Origin: Pedosphaera parvula Ellin514
GTDB lineage: Bacteria; Verrucomicrobiota; Verrucomicrobiia; Limisphaerales; Pedosphaeraceae
DNA length: 60,607 nucleotides
Direction: 5' to 3'
Assembly (NCBI RefSeq): GCF_000172555.1
Contig: NZ_ABOX02000045.1
Span: forward strand, 1 to 60,607
Shown here in pieces: positions 2,346 to 49,770 of the stretch (position 1 is the first letter of the stretch; the number at the start of each line of letters is the position of its first letter). The translations under genes were made by a program, and so were the position numbers. Under the pieces are notes generated by a model. The model was not told the origin of the DNA, did not search any database, and worked only from the letters and a program-made list of their open reading frames with translations.

Positions 2346-3176
2346 ATGTCATTTTCATTCACATTTCTCGGCAGCGGAACCTCCCAAGGGGTGCCGATGA
2401 TCGGGACCGACTATCCGGAGTCGTTTCTGGCGAACCCTAAGAACCATCGCACCCGCCCATCTATTTATATCGCCACTGACCAGATAAAACTAGTAGTTGA
2501 TACCACGCCTGACTTTCGCACCCAGGTTCTGCGCGAGAACATCCGCTGGCTGGATGCGGTGATTTTTACTCATTCACACGCGGACCATATCATGGGCCTG
2601 GACGATTGCCGACGATTTTGCGATTTGCGTAATGGGGCGCTGCCCATCTATGCCAATCAGAATACCATGAACGACCTTAAACGTGTGTTCATTTATGCCT
2701 TCCATGATGGACCGTGGCCGAAGGGATATTTTATCCCAGAACAGCGGATAATTGAAGGGCCTTTTACGATTGGAGATCTTGAGATCACCCCTTTGCCCCT
2801 GCCGCACGGTCGAATGATTACGAATGGCTATTTGTTCGTCCAAGGTGGTAAGAAAAAGCTGGCTTATTTGAGTGATTGCAAGGAAGTTCCGGTCGAAGCC
2901 ATAAAACAAGTCAGCGGCGTCGAAGTGGCGGTGTTGGATGCCCTGCGCCGGGCACCGCATCCGACGCATATGTGCCTGGATGAAGCGTTAACGACTGCCA
3001 GACGCATTGGAGCCGAGCGGACTTATTTCACGCATTTGACACATGATTATGACCATGACATTGCGCAAGCGGAACTTCCACCGAGCGTGGAACTGGCATA
3101 CGACGGCTTGAAAGTGAATTATGAGGATGCATTGCCAATGAATGCCGAAAGCAGTCAATTGACGAGCACTAAATGA
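2346..3176 (+). CDS. PhnP-like MBL-fold metallo-hydrolase
   Basis: This is a metallo-beta-lactamase-fold phosphodiesterase of the PhnP/YycJ group. The metal-binding motif THSHADH occupies residues 75-81, the N-terminus has the group's [11 protein letters not shown] motif, and further ligands appear in [15 protein letters not shown] and THLTHDYDH. The length (276 residues) fits the group. PhnP hydrolyses phosphoribosyl cyclic phosphate, and relatives act on cyclic nucleotides or other phosphodiesters. No phosphonate-metabolism genes are present here, so the substrate cannot be assigned. Its TGA overlaps the ATG of the next gene by 4 bases, which suggests translational coupling to the TIGR03790 protein. 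Confidence 0.85.
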
Positions 3177-4873
3177 ACAAACTTTTCAACATTTTGATGG
3201 TATTGGGACTGCTGGGATCGCCTTCCATCCTTCACGCAGCCGGGCGTGGTGATGAAGTGGTGGTGGTTTATAACACCAGGGTGCCTGAATCCAAAGACAT
3301 TGCGGAACATTACGCCAGGGTTCGGGAAGTGCCGGCGAGCCAGGTATTTGGTTTCGATATGCCGACGCGTGAGACGATCAACCGCCTGGAATTCCACGAA
3401 CAATTGGAGAAGCCTTTGTCCAAGGCGCTCGTTGAAAATGGATTATTTCATTTCAGATTAAAATCCGTTCCCGGTGCAGACGGAAAAGGCGAGCATGCAG
3501 TCCGCAAGGTTACCGATGCCAAAATACGCTATTTGGTGCTTTGCTACGGAGTTCCGCTGGTCATCGGAAAAGACCCGGAGCTGAAAGAGGAAGGCGAGGA
3601 GAAATTGCAACCGGAACTGCGCCGGAATGAAGCCGCCGTGGATAGTGAGCTGGCTTGCCTGCCGTTGATCGAGCAGCACTACATGCGCGCTGGACCGCTT
3701 GTTAATGCCAGCTTTGGATCGACGAATGCAGCGGCCATGAATCCGACGAATAATTTGCTCATGGTAGCCAGGCTAGATGGTCCTTCTCCTGCGATTGCGC
3801 GAGCTTTGGTGGACAAGGCGATGCAAGCCGAGACGGATGGCCTATGGGGCCGGGCCTATTTCGATTTGCGCGGAATCACTTCGGGAAATTATAAACAGGG
3901 AGAAGACTGGCTGCGGGGTGCGTCGGAGGTTTGTCGTCGGCTGGGGTTCGAAACCGTGGTGGATGAAGCGCCAGGCACTTTTCCAATCAGCTTTCCTTTG
4001 AGTCAGGTGGCCTTCTACTCCGGTTGGTACGAGGAAAGCATTACCGGGCCATTTACGCGTCCGACAGTTGAATTCATGCCCGGCGCATTTGCATATCATC
4101 TCCACTCCATCAGCGCGGCCAGTCTGCGGACCACGACGCGACAATGGGTGGGTCCGTTTCTGGCCAAAGGCGTTACTGCAACCATGGGTTGCGTGGACGA
4201 ACCTTACCTTGCCGGCACACCGGACATGGCCATTTTCTACGCGCGTTTTGTGTTCTCCGGCTTCAGTTTCGGCGAGGCTGCTTATGCCTGCCAGGCTGTT
4301 CTATCATGGCAAGCCACTGTGGTCGGTGATCCTTTGTACCGTCCATTTGCCAAAGGTCCTCAGGAGCAACTGGCGGAACTCGAACGAAAGCACAGCCGGA
4401 TGCTGGAATGGTATTACCTGCGTGCGGCCAATTTCAAAATGGCCAATGGCACCAAGGCAACGGAAGTCATTCCGGCGCTGGAGAAGCTCGGACTAACCGC
4501 GCAAAGCGCCGTGCTGTCTGAAAAATTAGCCGAGTTATATCAGGGGCAAGACAAGTCAGAATCCTCGGTTCATGCGCTGCAACAAGCCTTGAAACTGGAG
4601 CCTACTCCTCAACAACGAGTTCGTTTGATGCTAAATCTCGGCACCCGTTTGATTGCGCTCGGACACCATCTGGAGGCTTACGAGGTTTATCAGGCTTTTC
4701 TGAAAGAATGTCCTGACTATCCGGACCGGCCGGCAATTTACAAACAGCTTGTCAGTCTGGCAGAGAAACTGGGCAGAAAGGAAGAGGCTGGCGCGTACCA
4801 ACATGCGGTCGACGATCAGGGTGTTTCTCAAGTCAAGCTCCCGAAACAACCAGCCCTCAGGCCTGGCATTTAG
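3173..4873 (+). CDS. TIGR03790 family exported protein with TPR-like tail
   Basis: A signal peptide (about residues 1-22, ending near LHAAG) is followed by the N-terminal pattern of the TIGR03790 family: [20 protein letters not shown], then a block with [11 protein letters not shown]. The family has no assigned reaction and occurs in Verrucomicrobia, Planctomycetes and some Proteobacteria. The C-terminal quarter (about 400-540) consists of helical repeats such as [20 protein letters not shown] and [20 protein letters not shown], which look like tetratricopeptide repeats. The ATG overlaps the stop codon of the upstream metallo-hydrolase (ATGA), so both are probably made from one message. It converges with the gene ending at 4914, with 40 bases between the stops. 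Confidence 0.8.
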
Positions 4874-41172: not shown

Positions 41173-43605
41173 ATGTTGAAACGACCACTAGTCCTGGTGG
41201 CGTTTTGGTACACGGCGGGAATTTTGCTGGCCCGCTGTTCCGCTCCCCTGCCCATTCTGTTCAGCCTGGCTTTTCTGCTGCTCATTCCGGCATTGACTTG
41301 CCCACGATGGCGATTAGTTTGCCTTTGCCCCGTGCTTCTGCTTGCCGGCTGGATAAATCTCGCTCAACGCGAGGCAGTACTTTCCCCACGTGACATTCGA
41401 AGACTGGCTGGTACTAACGAGGCGATTGTTACGATTCGTGGAAAGCTGCACGAAACCCCTCATCAGCGATTGCACAAGCAGAATGATATCGAGGTTTGGA
41501 CGTCGATGGCCCAAGTCGACCTCACAGAGCTGCGGCCCAATCGAAGTGACTGGCAACCAGCTTTCGGTTCCGTAATGGTCAGTGTCAAGGAGCTGCTTTC
41601 AGATAACTTTTTCCGCGGACAGATTGTCGAGATCACCGGCATACTGCGACCTGCCAAAGGACCCATTGCGGAGGGCCTGTTCGATTATCGACAATACCTT
41701 CAACAACAAGGAATTTATTACCAGTTACACACCGAGTCCTCTGGTGACTGGCAGATTTTGTCATCGCCCGGCTCTCGTCCGTTGGAAGATCGCTTTACGA
41801 CCTGGGCGAAAAAAGCTCTGGCGCTTGGACTGCCAGTTGCAGATCAAACGCTCCACTTGGAATGGGCGCTTACGTTGGGATGGAAAGCGGCATTGACGGA
41901 GGAGGTCTCTGAACCATTTATACGTGCTGCGACTTATCACATCTTTGCCGTAGACGGTTTACGAATCGCCATTGTATCCGGAATTTTCTTTGTGCTCCTG
42001 CGGGTCCTCAGGGTTCCCCGGGCCGCCTGCGGCATACTCGTCATTCCCGCTTTGATTTTTTATGCAGCCATGACCGGCTGGCCAGCATCTGCCATCAGAG
42101 CACTTGTGATGGTAGCGGTGATTTATGTTGGCTGGGCACTGAAACGCCCGAGTGACATGATCAACTCCCTCTTCGTCGCGGCCCTGATCATTTTGGTCTG
42201 GGAACCACGCCAGCTATTCCAAGCGGGCTTTCAACTCTCCTTCTTTGTCGTTCTTTGCATTATTTTGATCTGGCCAGTTTTTGACCAGCTGACCTTGCGA
42301 CTTTTGCGTCACGACCCATTGTTGCCGGAAGAACTGGTTCCAAAGTGGCAGCGCTGGTTAAAAATACCAGCCCGATACCTGCTGGATTTATTCTTCTCGT
42401 CCATCGCTGCCTGGCTCGGGTCCATTCCCCTGGCTGCTTATTACTTTCACATCATCACGCCGGCCAGCGGGCCAGCCAATGTGCCTGCCGTTTTTCTTTG
42501 CGGATTGGTACTGATCGCCAACCTGTGCAGCCTGCTACTGGCTGCCTGGTTTCCGTGGGCGGCAGAACTGTTTAACCACGCCGGTTGGTTCCTGATGCGA
42601 GGCATTGAAAACAGCAGTCAATGGTCGGCAAGCTGGCCGGCAGCATATTATTACGTTCCGAGTCCAAGTCTCTTCAGCATCATCGTCTACTATGTGTTGC
42701 TGCTGGCTATTTTCACGGGTTGGATCTTCCGGAAGGAACAACGGAATTGGCGCATCACTGGCGTCGCTTTCCTTGTGATCGTGTGGTGTTCGGTTTACGC
42801 CCTGCAGCATCCTTCGATCACCAGGGTGACAATTCTTCCAATGAATGGCGGTCACGCGGTGTTTGCGAAGAGTTCAACAGATGGAAAAACCTGGTTGATT
42901 GATACCGGCAACAAGACTTCTGTTGAAATGATGGTCAAACCGTTTTTGCAGGCGCAGGGGGTGAATCGACTCGATCACCTCCTTCTCAGCCACGGAGAAA
43001 TAAGCTACACGGGGGGATCACAACTGTTGTCGGAAATTGTTTCCCCTCGCCTCGTTTATACCAGCCCCATCCGATTCCGGTCTCCCGATTATGTCAATTT
43101 TCTGAAGGTTTTGGAATCGACTCGCACACGTCACGAGAATATCTCCTGCGGCGATCACATCGGAGGCTGGACCGTTCTGTATCCACCTGACACCACCACT
43201 TTCGCCCGGGCCAGTGACAACGCGATGGTGCTCAGAGGTGATTTTGCCTCAACCCGCCTCCTGCTCCTTTCAAATCTCGGCGGACTGGGACAGAATGCCC
43301 TGCTTGAAAGAACGAAGGATCTGCACGCGGACATCGTGGTAGCGGGCTTGCCAAATGAAGGAGAACCATTGAACGATCTGCTTCTTGATGCGATTCGCCC
43401 GAAAATCATCATCATCGCCGATGCCGATTTCCCCGCAAACAAACGCGCCGGAAGAAAACTGCAGCAACGACTCGCAGCAAAAGATATTCCTGTCATCTAC
43501 ACCCGGCACTCGGAAGCCGTCACCTTGTCAATCACTGCGAGAGCTTGGGAACTCAATGCGATGGATGGCACTCGTATTTCCAGTTCAGCTTTTATCAAAC
43601 CTTGA
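41173..43605 (+). CDS. comEC: ComEC/Rec2 family DNA uptake channel (degenerate MBL domain)
   Basis: ComEC carries single-stranded DNA across the inner membrane during natural transformation. This 810-residue protein has the family layout: N-terminal membrane segments and a soluble OB-like domain (AEGLFDYRQYLQQQGIYY), the ComEC membrane core (ATYHIFAVDGLRIAIVSGIFF and following helices to about 530), and a C-terminal metallo-beta-lactamase-like domain. In that last domain the LIDTG motif is kept, but the expected HxDxDH reads SHGEISYTGG, and the later metal-binding GD is replaced by SN (LLLLSNLGG). The nuclease function seen in other ComEC proteins may therefore be lost. It follows vanZ by 1 base. 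Confidence 0.88.
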   Translation: MLKRPLVLVAFWYTAGILLARCSAPLPILFSLAFLLLIPALTCPRWRLVCLCPVLLLAGWINLAQREAVLSPRDIRRLAGTNEAIVTIRGKLHETPHQRLHKQNDIEVWTSMAQVDLTELRPNRSDWQPAFGSVMVSVKELLSDNFFRGQIVEITGILRPAKGPIAEGLFDYRQYLQQQGIYYQLHTESSGDWQILSSPGSRPLEDRFTTWAKKALALGLPVADQTLHLEWALTLGWKAALTEEVSEPFIRAATYHIFAVDGLRIAIVSGIFFVLLRVLRVPRAACGILVIPALIFYAAMTGWPASAIRALVMVAVIYVGWALKRPSDMINSLFVAALIILVWEPRQLFQAGFQLSFFVVLCIILIWPVFDQLTLRLLRHDPLLPEELVPKWQRWLKIPARYLLDLFFSSIAAWLGSIPLAAYYFHIITPASGPANVPAVFLCGLVLIANLCSLLLAAWFPWAAELFNHAGWFLMRGIENSSQWSASWPAAYYYVPSPSLFSIIVYYVLLLAIFTGWIFRKEQRNWRITGVAFLVIVWCSVYALQHPSITRVTILPMNGGHAVFAKSSTDGKTWLIDTGNKTSVEMMVKPFLQAQGVNRLDHLLLSHGEISYTGGSQLLSEIVSPRLVYTSPIRFRSPDYVNFLKVLESTRTRHENISCGDHIGGWTVLYPPDTTTFARASDNAMVLRGDFASTRLLLLSNLGGLGQNALLERTKDLHADIVVAGLPNEGEPLNDLLLDAIRPKIIIIADADFPANKRAGRKLQQRLAAKDIPVIYTRHSEAVTLSITARAWELNAMDGTRISSSAFIKP

Positions 43606-46622: not shown

Positions 46623-46970
46623 TTATCGCTTCTGCGTCCAGGTCACTGAGACATATTGCGCCTGCGGGATGACGAACTTCTTCACTTCGACCGTGATGGC
46701 TTGGGGTTGATATTCGTTGAGAATCATGTCAGCCAGGTTGGCCGAAAGCTTTTCAATCAGTTTCCAACTGCGGCCCTCGCCATATTTCAGCAAAGTTTGG
46801 GCGACAGCGTAATAATCGATGGTTTTCTGGATTCGATCGCTCACGGCGGCAGAGGTGAAGTCGAAGGTCATATCGATCGTGAGCAACAGCCGTTGCGGCC
46901 TGGCACGTTCCTCGTCCGGCACACCGACGCAATAAAACACTTCCAAGTCTTTGATCGTAATCTTTGACAT
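46623..46970 (-). CDS. folB: Dihydroneopterin aldolase FolB
   Basis: FolB cleaves 7,8-dihydroneopterin to 6-hydroxymethyl-7,8-dihydropterin and glycolaldehyde in folate synthesis. This 115-residue protein has the family signatures: DLEVFYCVGVPDEERARPQ at the N-terminus with the active-site Glu, and ITVEVKKFVIPQA near the end with the catalytic Lys. The ATG starts 2 bases after the stop of the HAD-Nudix gene upstream on the same strand, so the two are very probably one operon. This pairing is discussed in the findings. Confidence 0.93.
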   Translation of the reverse strand: MSKITIKDLEVFYCVGVPDEERARPQRLLLTIDMTFDFTSAAVSDRIQKTIDYYAVAQTLLKYGEGRSWKLIEKLSANLADMILNEYQPQAITVEVKKFVIPQAQYVSVTWTQKR

Positions 46971-46972
46971 AC

Positions 46973-48052
46973 TTAATTTACCGGCTTCAGTTCTGATTTC
47001 GCGACGGCTTCAAGCAGAATGCGCGTGGGCTGATTGATGCTCATTTTCAACGCATTCGCCACGGAAAGCCACTTAAACTCCCGCGCTTCGTCGTTGAGCT
47101 TCACTTCTCTGTTTCCCACGGCGAGCGCCGTGTAATTAAGCAAAACGAAATGCGCATCGCGATAAAATTCCTTCGAATGAATGCAATCCTGCACCAGCAC
47201 AAACTTGATGTCGGTAATGTCGAGATTGGTTTCTTCCATGATCTCTCGACGTAACGCAGTGAATGAGTCCTCACCCCATTTTATTTTTCCGCCGGGAATG
47301 CCCCAGAGGTTGGACCATTTATGAGTGCGGACCATCAATACATCCCCAACATCGTTGAAGATAAGAGCACCGACCGTAACTACCGGCATCTTCTCCGTCT
47401 CCTGATCTGCACCGGGGCGAAGTTCCATCCCATTTGATTCCAAAATATTTTGCAGTTCACCAAGATGCTCAACGATGAGATCAGGATGGCTGGCGCGGAG
47501 TTGTTGCAAACCGTTATAGCCCGTTAACACCGCGCAGGAATGAATGCCGCCGTGTTTCGCCGTATCGATGTCATGTTGCATGTCGCCGATGAACAAAGTT
47601 TCATCGGGGTTCACCTGGTTTTCTTCCAGGACGGAATGAATCTTTTCCCGTTTATCAATGATGCCGACATAGGGGCGATCCAGAAATTCGGCGAAGCCGG
47701 TGGTGCCAGCTTGCACGGCGAAATGATCTGAGTGGACAGTGCTCAGGAGAAAGGTGCGAACGCCTTTTTGGCGGCAATACTTTAGAAATGCACGTGCATG
47801 GGGCAGTTCGACAACGGAATCCTGCACCTGCTTGAAGCGCCCATGAAACCAGACCTCCAATTGAGGCATCGAGACGTGCGGCACATAACGTTCGTAAAAC
47901 TTGGTGAAAGGCAGGCAGAACTCCGCGCGGAACGTTTCCAGGCTCATCTCTTCGCGCTCGGCCTGGATCAGGACGTGATTGGTCGCCTTCCAAACGGCTG
48001 GAAGATCATCCACCAACGTGCCCGACCAATCAAAAATGATGTTTCGAATCAC
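46973..48052 (-). CDS. HAD phosphatase - Nudix hydrolase fusion
   Basis: A 359-residue two-domain protein with a GTG start. The N-terminal HAD domain (about 1-205) has motif I DWSGTLVDD (D8; S10 in place of the usual second Asp), motif II LLSTVHSD, motif III lysines in IIDKREKI and motif IV FIGDMQHDID (D157, D161). The C-terminal Nudix domain (about 222-359) carries the box GKIKWGE...REIMEETN (255-276), complete except for Asn instead of the last Gly. A Nudix enzyme removes pyrophosphate from nucleotide-like substrates, and a HAD enzyme removes phosphate. It is upstream of folB by 2 bases. Alternative: an unrelated house-cleaning enzyme next to folB by chance. Confidence 0.87.
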   Translation of the reverse strand: MIRNIIFDWSGTLVDDLPAVWKATNHVLIQAEREEMSLETFRAEFCLPFTKFYERYVPHVSMPQLEVWFHGRFKQVQDSVVELPHARAFLKYCRQKGVRTFLLSTVHSDHFAVQAGTTGFAEFLDRPYVGIIDKREKIHSVLEENQVNPDETLFIGDMQHDIDTAKHGGIHSCAVLTGYNGLQQLRASHPDLIVEHLGELQNILESNGMELRPGADQETEKMPVVTVGALIFNDVGDVLMVRTHKWSNLWGIPGGKIKWGEDSFTALRREIMEETNLDITDIKFVLVQDCIHSKEFYRDAHFVLLNYTALAVGNREVKLNDEAREFKWLSVANALKMSINQPTRILLEAVAKSELKPVN

Positions 48053-48124: not shown

Positions 48125-48472
48125 TTACACTATTTTCCGATGATTTCCAGACCGATACCGCAAAGGCATCGTTCCTCGCGCAATCCGTATGCGGACAAAG
48201 AAATACCAGATAATGGCCAGGGGAAAAAACAGTACACAGGTTACAAACAGACCTACCGGCCCATATGAAAGCCATGTGTCATAACGGCGAAGATCGATAT
48301 GCGTCGAATCAAAAGCCGCAATGCCTGCCGTACTGATTGCCAGAGCTCCGTAATACAGCGTGTTAAAAAAATCGCCTCCCAGAAAAGCTGCGCTGACATA
48401 GAGAATACCAATAAGGCAAATGGCAAACCATGCTTTGGCGGAAAGTTTAAATTTCTGGTTCTTCTTTTCCAT
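48125..48472 (-). CDS. Small membrane protein of unknown function
   Basis: A 115-residue protein with about four predicted membrane-spanning or hydrophobic stretches: AWFAICLIGILYVSAAFLGG, FNTLYYGALAISTAGIAAF, GPVGLFVTCVLFFPLAIIW. A charged N-terminus (MEKKNQKFKLS) and a basic C-terminus (RIRIARG, RYRSGNHRK) suggest that both ends face the cytoplasm. The ATG at 48472 is used, since the extension to 48517 overlaps the neighbouring gene's end. It follows the NTF2-like gene. No family was recognised. Confidence 0.6.
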   Translation of the reverse strand: MEKKNQKFKLSAKAWFAICLIGILYVSAAFLGGDFFNTLYYGALAISTAGIAAFDSTHIDLRRYDTWLSYGPVGLFVTCVLFFPLAIIWYFFVRIRIARGTMPLRYRSGNHRKIV

Positions 48473-48516
48473 TACGCACTTGAAACTAAGTCGAGCAAAG
48501 AAAGTTGTCCAGCACA

Positions 48517-48924
48517 TCAGCTCAGAGGCGATACTGGCTCGGCGGCCAGAAGATTCGCATCACGGAAAAGGATCCAGTTGCCGTCGGGATTTTTCCGCAT
48601 AATAGAGAGAACGAAGCCGGATCGCTGCACGGGTGAACCTTCCTGCCTTGGAGTCATGGTGACGGAAAGATGATTCCAGCAGTAAGCCATTTCACCGGAG
48701 ATTTGTATCTCCTGAATTTGCGAGGTCGCACTGATTTGAAAATGTTGGAGAGCGGTTTGAAAATTTGCGGCGAAGGCGTCCCGGCCACGCATGGGTGGAC
48801 GGCCGGGAATGAGAAAGACAACATCCTCGGCCATGAGTTTAAGCAATTGCGGAAGGTCTCCTGCTGCGCTGGCGCGGAGCCAGGTGGCAATCAGATCGCG
48901 AATTTTTTGTTCGTCTGCATGCAT
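48517..48924 (-). CDS. NTF2-like / SnoaL-type protein
   Basis: A 135-residue NTF2-like fold protein. The family pattern is visible: EQKIRDLIATWLRASAAGDLPQLLKLMAEDVVFLIPGRPPMRGRDAF, and the end WILFRDANLLA. Its closest look is to the SgcJ/EcaC-type group of unknown activity. The ATG at 48924 is chosen as it begins just before the domain; a longer frame to 48954 would overlap the upstream gene by 17 bases. Another NTF2-like protein lies two genes upstream (49342), so these may be paralogues, although their sequences differ considerably. A short gap separates the gene from the small membrane protein downstream. Confidence 0.75.
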   Translation of the reverse strand: MHADEQKIRDLIATWLRASAAGDLPQLLKLMAEDVVFLIPGRPPMRGRDAFAANFQTALQHFQISATSQIQEIQISGEMAYCWNHLSVTMTPRQEGSPVQRSGFVLSIMRKNPDGNWILFRDANLLAAEPVSPLS

Positions 48925-48937
48925 AAGTTGAACGGGT

Positions 48938-49318
48938 TTATTTTGAGCCCTCATCCTCGGATTCGTCCGTTGGCAATTCCGGATCTGGAATTCCAGCGCT
49001 CAAGCACATGCATGAAAGTGAGGACCGCAACGTCTCCACCTGCGTCTGGGTAAGCGCTCGTACAAATCCGCTTAAAAAATAAAACACGACCACTTGAAAA
49101 AGTGAACCGAGACCGACTAAAAAGCAAACGATGGTGGAATAACCATGAAAGATGAGCCATAAAATAATCCCCAGCGCTGCACAGAACACAACTCCAGTCT
49201 GTATTCTCAAAACCGAATCCAAGGTTTCTCCAGCCACGGCCAGCTTTGCGCGTGCTGCCTGTGCATCATTTATGCGGCGGGTATATTGAGACTGAACGTC
49301 TAGAGGCTGGTTGGGCAT
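48938..49318 (-). CDS. Small membrane protein of unknown function
   Basis: A 126-residue protein with two hydrophobic segments (TGVVFCAALGIILWLIFHGYS and TIVCFLVGLGSLFQVVVFYFLSGFV). The N-terminal third is amphipathic (YTRRINDAQAARAKLAVAGE) and the tail is acidic (PELPTDESEDEGSK). The ATG at 49318 is preferred over one at 49351: it has AGAGGA about 10 bases upstream, and the alternative overlaps the preceding gene's stop by 10 bases with no ribosome-binding site. It lies between two NTF2-like genes with very short spacers, so the group is probably one operon. No family was recognised. Confidence 0.65.
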   Translation of the reverse strand: MPNQPLDVQSQYTRRINDAQAARAKLAVAGETLDSVLRIQTGVVFCAALGIILWLIFHGYSTIVCFLVGLGSLFQVVVFYFLSGFVRALTQTQVETLRSSLSCMCLSAGIPDPELPTDESEDEGSK

Positions 49319-49341
49319 ATCGTGGAGTTCCTCTAATGATT

Positions 49342-49770
49342 TCAGTCCCATGAAAGTGGCAGACCGATTTGGCGTGCCTGCGCTGCCGAATCTCTGGCGC
49401 CCCAGCGTTGCTGGATTTTGCCGTCGCGAACGATAAACCGTTCCATTGCGCCCAATTCATAGGATTTGCCGGTCGGTTGATTTCCGCGAAATGGACCTAC
49501 AAATTTTCCACGCTCGAGGTAACGCACCGCAACGTATTCACCCTCGGCGATCATTGATTCCACGGTCAGGACTATCCCAAAAGCTGACCGCAGGTCCTTC
49601 CAAATAGGGATGACGGTAGCCAGACCGCCTTTTCCCAGATCGCCTTTTCCCAGAACGCCTTGAATCACGGCGTCAGGAGCGAATATTCTTTGCAGGGCGT
49701 CGTAATCGCCCGCGTTGAAAGCCTCGGCATAGTTCGCAACAACCTGTTTGTTTACTTCTGATAGATCCAT
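49342..49770 (-). CDS. SnoaL-like (NTF2-fold) protein
   Basis: A 142-residue NTF2-fold protein of SnoaL-like type: VNKQVVANYAEAFNAGDYDALQRIFAPDAVIQGVLG, with the later ERFIVRDGKIQQRWGARDSAA. The ATG at 49770 starts at the family N-terminus; the open frame to 49941 does not look like protein. SnoaL-like proteins act as small-molecule cyclases, isomerases or binding proteins, and nothing here identifies a ligand. It leads a tight minus-strand group of two NTF2-fold proteins and two membrane proteins. Confidence 0.8.
   Translation of the reverse strand: MDLSEVNKQVVANYAEAFNAGDYDALQRIFAPDAVIQGVLGKGDLGKGGLATVIPIWKDLRSAFGIVLTVESMIAEGEYVAVRYLERGKFVGPFRGNQPTGKSYELGAMERFIVRDGKIQQRWGARDSAAQARQIGLPLSWD

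Follow-up and report, generated by a model that had tools for sequence, protein, structure and literature searches.

A HAD-Nudix fusion gene beside folB in Pedosphaera parvula: a candidate pterin-branch module for the two-step dephosphorylation of dihydroneopterin triphosphate

The window analysed here, a stretch of 60,607 nucleotides from Pedosphaera parvula Ellin514 (contig NZ_ABOX02000045.1), carries on its minus strand two closely spaced genes. The upstream gene (46973..48052), delimited by its open reading frame and Pfam matches, starts with GTG and encodes a 359-residue protein in which a HAD domain (residues 1-205, 47438..48052) is joined to a Nudix domain (residues 223-341, 47030..47386); both domains score above the Pfam cut-offs (HAD_2 over residues 5-175, E 7.4e-17; NUDIX over residues 223-341, E 9.7e-21). 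Its TAA stop codon is separated by 2 nt from the ATG (position 46970) of folB (46623..46970), which lies on the same strand and encodes a dihydroneopterin aldolase of 115 residues (Pfam FolB, E 7.6e-25; TIGR00525). A preliminary description of this DNA had given the same layout, a 359-residue HAD and Nudix protein ending 2 bases before folB, and the ORF coordinates and Pfam agree with it; its readings of HAD motif I as DWSGT, devoid of the second Asp (residues D8-W9-S10-G11-T12, 48017..48031), and of a Nudix box at residues 255-277 (47222..47290), in which E270, E273 and E274 prove to be intact, are likewise correct. Two further small minus-strand frames found upstream of the pair (48125-48517 and 48938-49351) have no Pfam match, and no match to them was found in the named loci described below (the 80 top-ranking ones among at least 534).

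The window folB is the single FolB match in the 7.41 Mb genome of P. parvula (G000). Its product passes the dihydroneopterin aldolase equivalog TIGR00525 (74.9 bits, cut-off 72.15), and residues G16, E21, Q26, Y53, E73 and K98 are invariant in 31 of 31 sequences, with E21, Y53, E73 and K98 presumably being the catalytic and pterin-binding residues. Among 97 genomes of the order, FolE2 is present in 83, that of P. parvula included (contig C60), and FolE in 15; one or the other is found in 91 of the 97, and the six genomes with neither are each at most 82% complete. FolE and FolE2 look largely complementary, as the 14 genomes lacking FolE2 comprise eight with FolE and six with neither, and seven genomes carry both. 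HPPK is also encoded in the P. parvula genome, on a different contig.

The Nudix domain contains the box with catalytic glutamates that defines Nudix hydrolases, in addition to its Pfam match above the cut-off. Within this box, G255, E261, R269, E270, E273 and E274 are invariant in 51 sequences, and the last Gly usual for a Nudix box is replaced by N277 in the window protein. Against the NudB equivalog NF006961 the window protein reaches 31.4 bits (cut-off 103), and it thus falls outside this model. Among solved structures NudI is the nearest to the domain (E 1.3e-11), NudB reaching 2.1e-7 and Nudix hydrolase 1 7.6e-7, and NudI structures are found among the Foldseek matches of the AlphaFold2 (AF2) model. 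The preliminary description had proposed to look for an absence of separate nudB genes, and such an absence is what is seen as far as the narrow NudB model, passed by only one of 14 controls, can reach: 0 of the 97 order genomes hold a NudB match above the curated cut-off, and 42 of the 97 have lower-scoring matches, which in some cases are due to the fusion protein. Note also that no close separate copy of the fused Nudix was found in 21 genomes that possess the HAD but no fused Nudix (best match 48 bits, compared with 176-248 bits for the fused Nudix in six fusion genomes). Thus, if the model proposed below is right, another pyrophosphatase must serve in these 21 genomes.

The AF2 model of the whole HAD-Nudix protein, built with 51 sequences, has a mean pLDDT of 93.3 and a pTM of 0.82, and places the HAD part among C1-capped proteins with a phosphoglycolate-phosphatase-like fold. 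Aligned with VIA-align, the HAD part superimposes on 2ah5 with a Z score of 25.9 and an rmsd of 1.9 over 204 residues; the phosphoglycolate phosphatase-like C1-cap HADs 2ah5, 3mc1 and 3d6j altogether match it in fold with Z scores of 24.4-25.9 over 200-206 residues, but share only 18-20% identity with it and differ from it at the acid/base Asp, for which the window HAD carries Ser. Residue conservation, computed over 145 copies of the HAD, revealed eight invariant residues (D8, W9, D16, N25, K134, D157, H160 and D161), and position 104 is Ser in 136 copies and Thr in nine. All features of a C1-capped member of the HAD superfamily are therefore in place: the nucleophile Asp, the Ser/Thr of motif II, the Lys of motif III, the Asp pair of motif IV and the fold itself. 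From general knowledge of HAD proteins, we take D8, K134, D157, D161 and Ser/Thr 104 to be the kit required for Mg binding and phospho-aspartate formation.

Most HAD phosphatases use an acid/base Asp located two residues after the nucleophile. At this position (residue 10) the present family has Ser in 144 copies and Cys in one, so that the Asp of canonical HAD phosphatases is found in none of the 145. Two of the invariant residues could replace it as proton donor, namely D16, which directly precedes the first cap helix (residues 17-30) in the AF2 model, and H160, which lies within motif IV. The absence of this Asp in 145 of 145 copies also agrees with another reading, according to which only the Nudix domain acts in the pathway, while the HAD domain, weakened in catalysis, serves as a scaffold or regulator keeping the Nudix beside FolB. 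We consider this unlikely, as the nucleophile, K134, D157 and D161 are fixed in all 145 copies, unlike in a decayed enzyme; moreover, the HAD occurs without Nudix in 11 of the 89 order genomes that possess it, seven of these 11 keeping FolB within 250 nt, and HAD-FolB fusions exist that contain no Nudix at all.

Phosphonoacetaldehyde hydrolases (phosphonatases) also do without an Asp at the +2 position, and their conserved cap Lys forms a Schiff base. The preliminary description had raised the possibility of such altered chemistry for the window HAD, which indeed resembles phosphonatase in fold (1rql, Z 21.1). However, the invariant cap lysine is absent here: position 51 is Lys in 37 of the 145 copies and varies otherwise, leaving K134 of motif III as the sole invariant Lys of the family. 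On these grounds phosphonatase-type chemistry is not supported, and that suggestion is rejected.

The fold shared with phosphoglycolate phosphatases does not reveal the substrate of the HAD. Since its profile and fold neighbours, phosphoglycolate phosphatases and phosphonatases, act on small two-carbon compounds, one may ask if the HAD instead dephosphorylates a by-product, for instance phosphoglycolate in a house-cleaning role or, if FolB cleaves dihydroneopterin monophosphate directly, glycolaldehyde phosphate. The release of glycolaldehyde by FolB, stated in the available text of PMC6451014, is in line with this proposal. We nevertheless hold it to be very unlikely, as the HAD remains far under the two phosphoglycolate phosphatase equivalog cut-offs (57.8 versus 225 bits and 55.1 versus 180 bits) and has no conserved Lys in its cap such as phosphonatases possess.

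The distribution of the gene pair was followed in the order sample (97 genomes, that of P. parvula included), which was searched with the HAD-Nudix protein and with FolB, the positions of the matches being compared. The HAD is present in 89 of the 97 genomes, fused to Nudix in 78 and without Nudix in 11. Its presence in 78 of 97 genomes indicates that the window fusion is not a product of chance; the other 77 fusions of the order are 51-80% identical to it. A same-strand FolB gene lies within 250 nt downstream of 70 of the 78 fusions and of seven of the 11 HAD-only genes, and at 251-2000 nt from four more fusions and one more HAD-only gene. The preliminary description had considered that the fusion might stand next to unrelated genes in most species; within the order the opposite is seen, with FolB adjoining these 70 of 78 fusions. 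The remaining four fusions include two whose FolB is on another contig (G002 and G090) and one (G093) that stops 13 nt before a contig end, the FolB contig of this genome opening with a piece that matches fusion residues 317-350; the separation in G093 is probably an assembly gap. In G019 the fusion match stops at residue 296 and FolB was not found in the genome. As to the remaining three HAD-only genes, FolB is on another contig in G029 and was not found in the genomes G061 and G079. Conversely, two genomes of the order (G004 and G055) possess FolB without this HAD. How often HAD and FolB occur in the same genomes was not counted as evidence, because neighbours located on one missing contig vanish together.

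A contig search provided the named loci, the 80 top-ranking ones among at least 534 matches; most of their titles either point to Verrucomicrobia or say little about the source, and one names Proteobacteria. FolB follows the HAD gene in 71 of these 80 top-ranking loci, within 20 nt in 48 cases and within 100 nt in 61; the nine top-ranking loci without FolB next to the HAD consist of two that run off the contig (L057 and L063) and seven others. As a neighbour control, nine other window proteins were compared with the same 80 top-ranking loci: eight of them recur in 0-5 of the 80 and the ninth, ComEC, in 31, it being understood that flank sizes vary with the length of the contig and distant neighbours are somewhat undercounted. 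With FolB in 71 of these 80 top-ranking loci and the eight proteins in 0-5, chance synteny of HAD-Nudix with folB is rejected. Three loci titled Akkermansia muciniphila (L074, L091 and L130), probably mislabelled, also encode HAD-Nudix proteins, 67-73% identical to the window protein in the HAD domain.

The ComEC-like gene (41173-43605, plus strand), which lies on the strand opposite to the pair, is a conserved neighbour too, though a weaker one than folB. In 30 of the 31 loci with ComEC among the 80 top-ranking ones, it is convergent with FolB and downstream of it, and is therefore not part of the operon. These observations bear on the proposal that the window protein is an ordinary house-cleaning Nudix-HAD fusion, serving in nucleotide sanitation and found beside folB by inherited gene order alone. 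The proximity of its Nudix domain to NudI rather than NudB among solved structures (E 1.3e-11 versus 2.1e-7) is in keeping with this proposal, as is the recurrence of ComEC on the other strand in 31 of the 80 top-ranking loci, which implies that some gene order is inherited. What makes it quite unlikely is the margin by which FolB (71 of the 80 top-ranking loci) exceeds the eight other proteins (0-5 of 80), together with the physical fusion of the HAD to FolB in eight fetched loci.

At the level of the phylum, 288 genomes were sampled. A strong HAD match was found in 43 besides P. parvula and a weak one in seven more, and 20 of the 43 were fetched. FolB is present in 260 of the 288 genomes and a strong HAD match in only 44, P. 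parvula included; many FolB-containing genomes of the phylum are thus devoid of the HAD, and FolB does not require it. In some of the lineages without this HAD, FolB neighbours other folate genes: folP and folK (L166), folK (L165), folP (L168) or folE (L161). The HAD is likewise found away from FolB. In three of three loci of family f65 (L141-L143), FolB is absent within 2.5-2.8 kb downstream of the HAD and is encoded elsewhere in the genome, and two loci of family f64 (L138 and L139) have the HAD with no FolB nearby. The f65 copies (in L141 at 2538-3182 on the minus strand, L142 and L143) share the DWSGT motif, and that of L141 is flanked on one side by a zinc-type ABC transporter and on the other by a lysine-decarboxylase-like gene. 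Genome G045 contains, besides HAD-Nudix near folB, a second, HAD-only copy (L046, C95:44655-45281) located beside a CotH-kinase gene with FolB not nearby. Given this second copy, members of the HAD family may also act in another role.

The 20 class-level loci that were fetched comprise eight HAD-Nudix genes, seven genes for HAD alone and five HAD-FolB fusions without Nudix (L133, L134, L135, L145 and L147; 327-330 residues). In three genomes HAD, Nudix and FolB form a single frame (L032, 484 residues; L033, 499; L034, 500). Each domain scores above its Pfam cut-off in all of the FolB fusions scanned, seven of the eight, namely in the three HAD-Nudix-FolB proteins and four of the five HAD-FolB proteins. 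An AF2 prediction made from a single sequence for one triple fusion has a mean pLDDT of 32.7. Overlong frames ending in FolB from other lineages (L153-L158 and L160, with L159 left out) were not counted as fusions, FolB alone being recognised by Pfam in all seven. A quick tree of 65 rows split HAD-FolB into two groups and the triple fusion into three, hinting at several independent HAD-FolB fusions. That idea was withdrawn, as one-clade tests are compatible with one origin for each type (p-AU 0.777 for HAD-FolB and 0.524 for HAD-Nudix-FolB), and trees that hold either type together even score better. Since FolB keeps its HAD in loci that have no Nudix, it is the HAD that is the steadier partner in these lineages and Nudix the variable one.

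We propose that HAD-Nudix and FolB form a pterin-branch folate module in which one polypeptide performs the two-step dephosphorylation of dihydroneopterin triphosphate, a reading to which we assign a probability of roughly 0.64. Its basis, well supported by context, consists of the domains and their conserved catalytic residues, the linkage of the pair and of the fusions, and the presence in the P. parvula genome of FolE2 and HPPK, which act before and after this module. FolE2, or FolE in some relatives, would make dihydroneopterin triphosphate, from which the Nudix domain, as the putative pyrophosphatase, would take off pyrophosphate to yield dihydroneopterin monophosphate. The HAD domain would then remove the last phosphate, presumably with D8 as the nucleophile and Mg bound by D8, D157 and D161, and FolB, from the gene that starts 2 nt further on (in some relatives, as part of the same polypeptide), would cleave the resulting dihydroneopterin. 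The preliminary description had suggested that one polypeptide could carry out the dephosphorylation and hand its product to FolB; the association with FolB has since gained strong support from genome context, through the conserved pair and the triple and HAD-FolB fusions, and the substrates, the order of the steps and any channelling are what we infer for this scheme.

The steadier partnership of HAD with FolB points to the HAD as the dihydroneopterin-monophosphate phosphatase and to Nudix as the triphosphate pyrophosphatase. The more specific suggestion that the HAD is a phosphatase dedicated to dihydroneopterin monophosphate, working without the canonical acid/base Asp, using D16 or H160 as proton donor and joined to its partners as HAD-Nudix, HAD-Nudix-FolB or HAD-FolB, is put forward tentatively, its chances being just short of even. 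If true, the HAD would give the dihydroneopterin monophosphate step a specific gene and a readily assayable protein, and would be a clean example of a HAD phosphatase that does not use the customary acid/base residue. The fusions with FolB would then represent a natural single-polypeptide route from dihydroneopterin triphosphate to 6-hydroxymethyldihydropterin.

In papers of 2007 and 2019 (PMC1971073, PMC6451014), as far as their available text goes, the last phosphate of dihydroneopterin monophosphate is left to a non-specific phosphatase, and an alkaline phosphatase is listed in the folate route in the accessible part of PMC10917623. No gene for a dihydroneopterin monophosphatase is named in the available portions of PMC1971073, PMC5041015, PMC5389931, PMC4790348, PMC10917623, PMC6451014, PMC12702654 and PMC5615194, and the open-licence literature searched names no HAD for the monophosphate step. 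The last of these papers (PMC5615194) is the only one found in the open-licence literature searched that combines dihydroneopterin, haloacid dehalogenase and folate, with the HADs in its available text concerning another pathway (KdsC). The HAD as a FolB partner, and HAD-FolB and HAD-Nudix-FolB proteins, were likewise not found in print in the open-licence literature searched.

Among known systems, the FolQ/NudB pyrophosphatases resemble the window protein in their Nudix domain, whose catalytic box is intact, and in their linkage to folate genes, exemplified by Lactococcus lactis FolQ in the folKEPQC cluster (PMC1971073, available text). The window protein differs from them in staying below the NudB cut-off (31.4 bits, with 103 required) and in the fusion of its Nudix domain to a HAD. 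The joining of Nudix to FolB is prior art, since FolQ and FolB of Parachlamydia are marked as fused in Table 2 of PMC1971073, as available. The Parachlamydia FolQ-FolB protein is thus similar to the window-type fusions in joining a pathway Nudix with FolB; however, a HAD is not mentioned for it in the available part of PMC1971073, whereas in the proteins described here the HAD is the steadier part.
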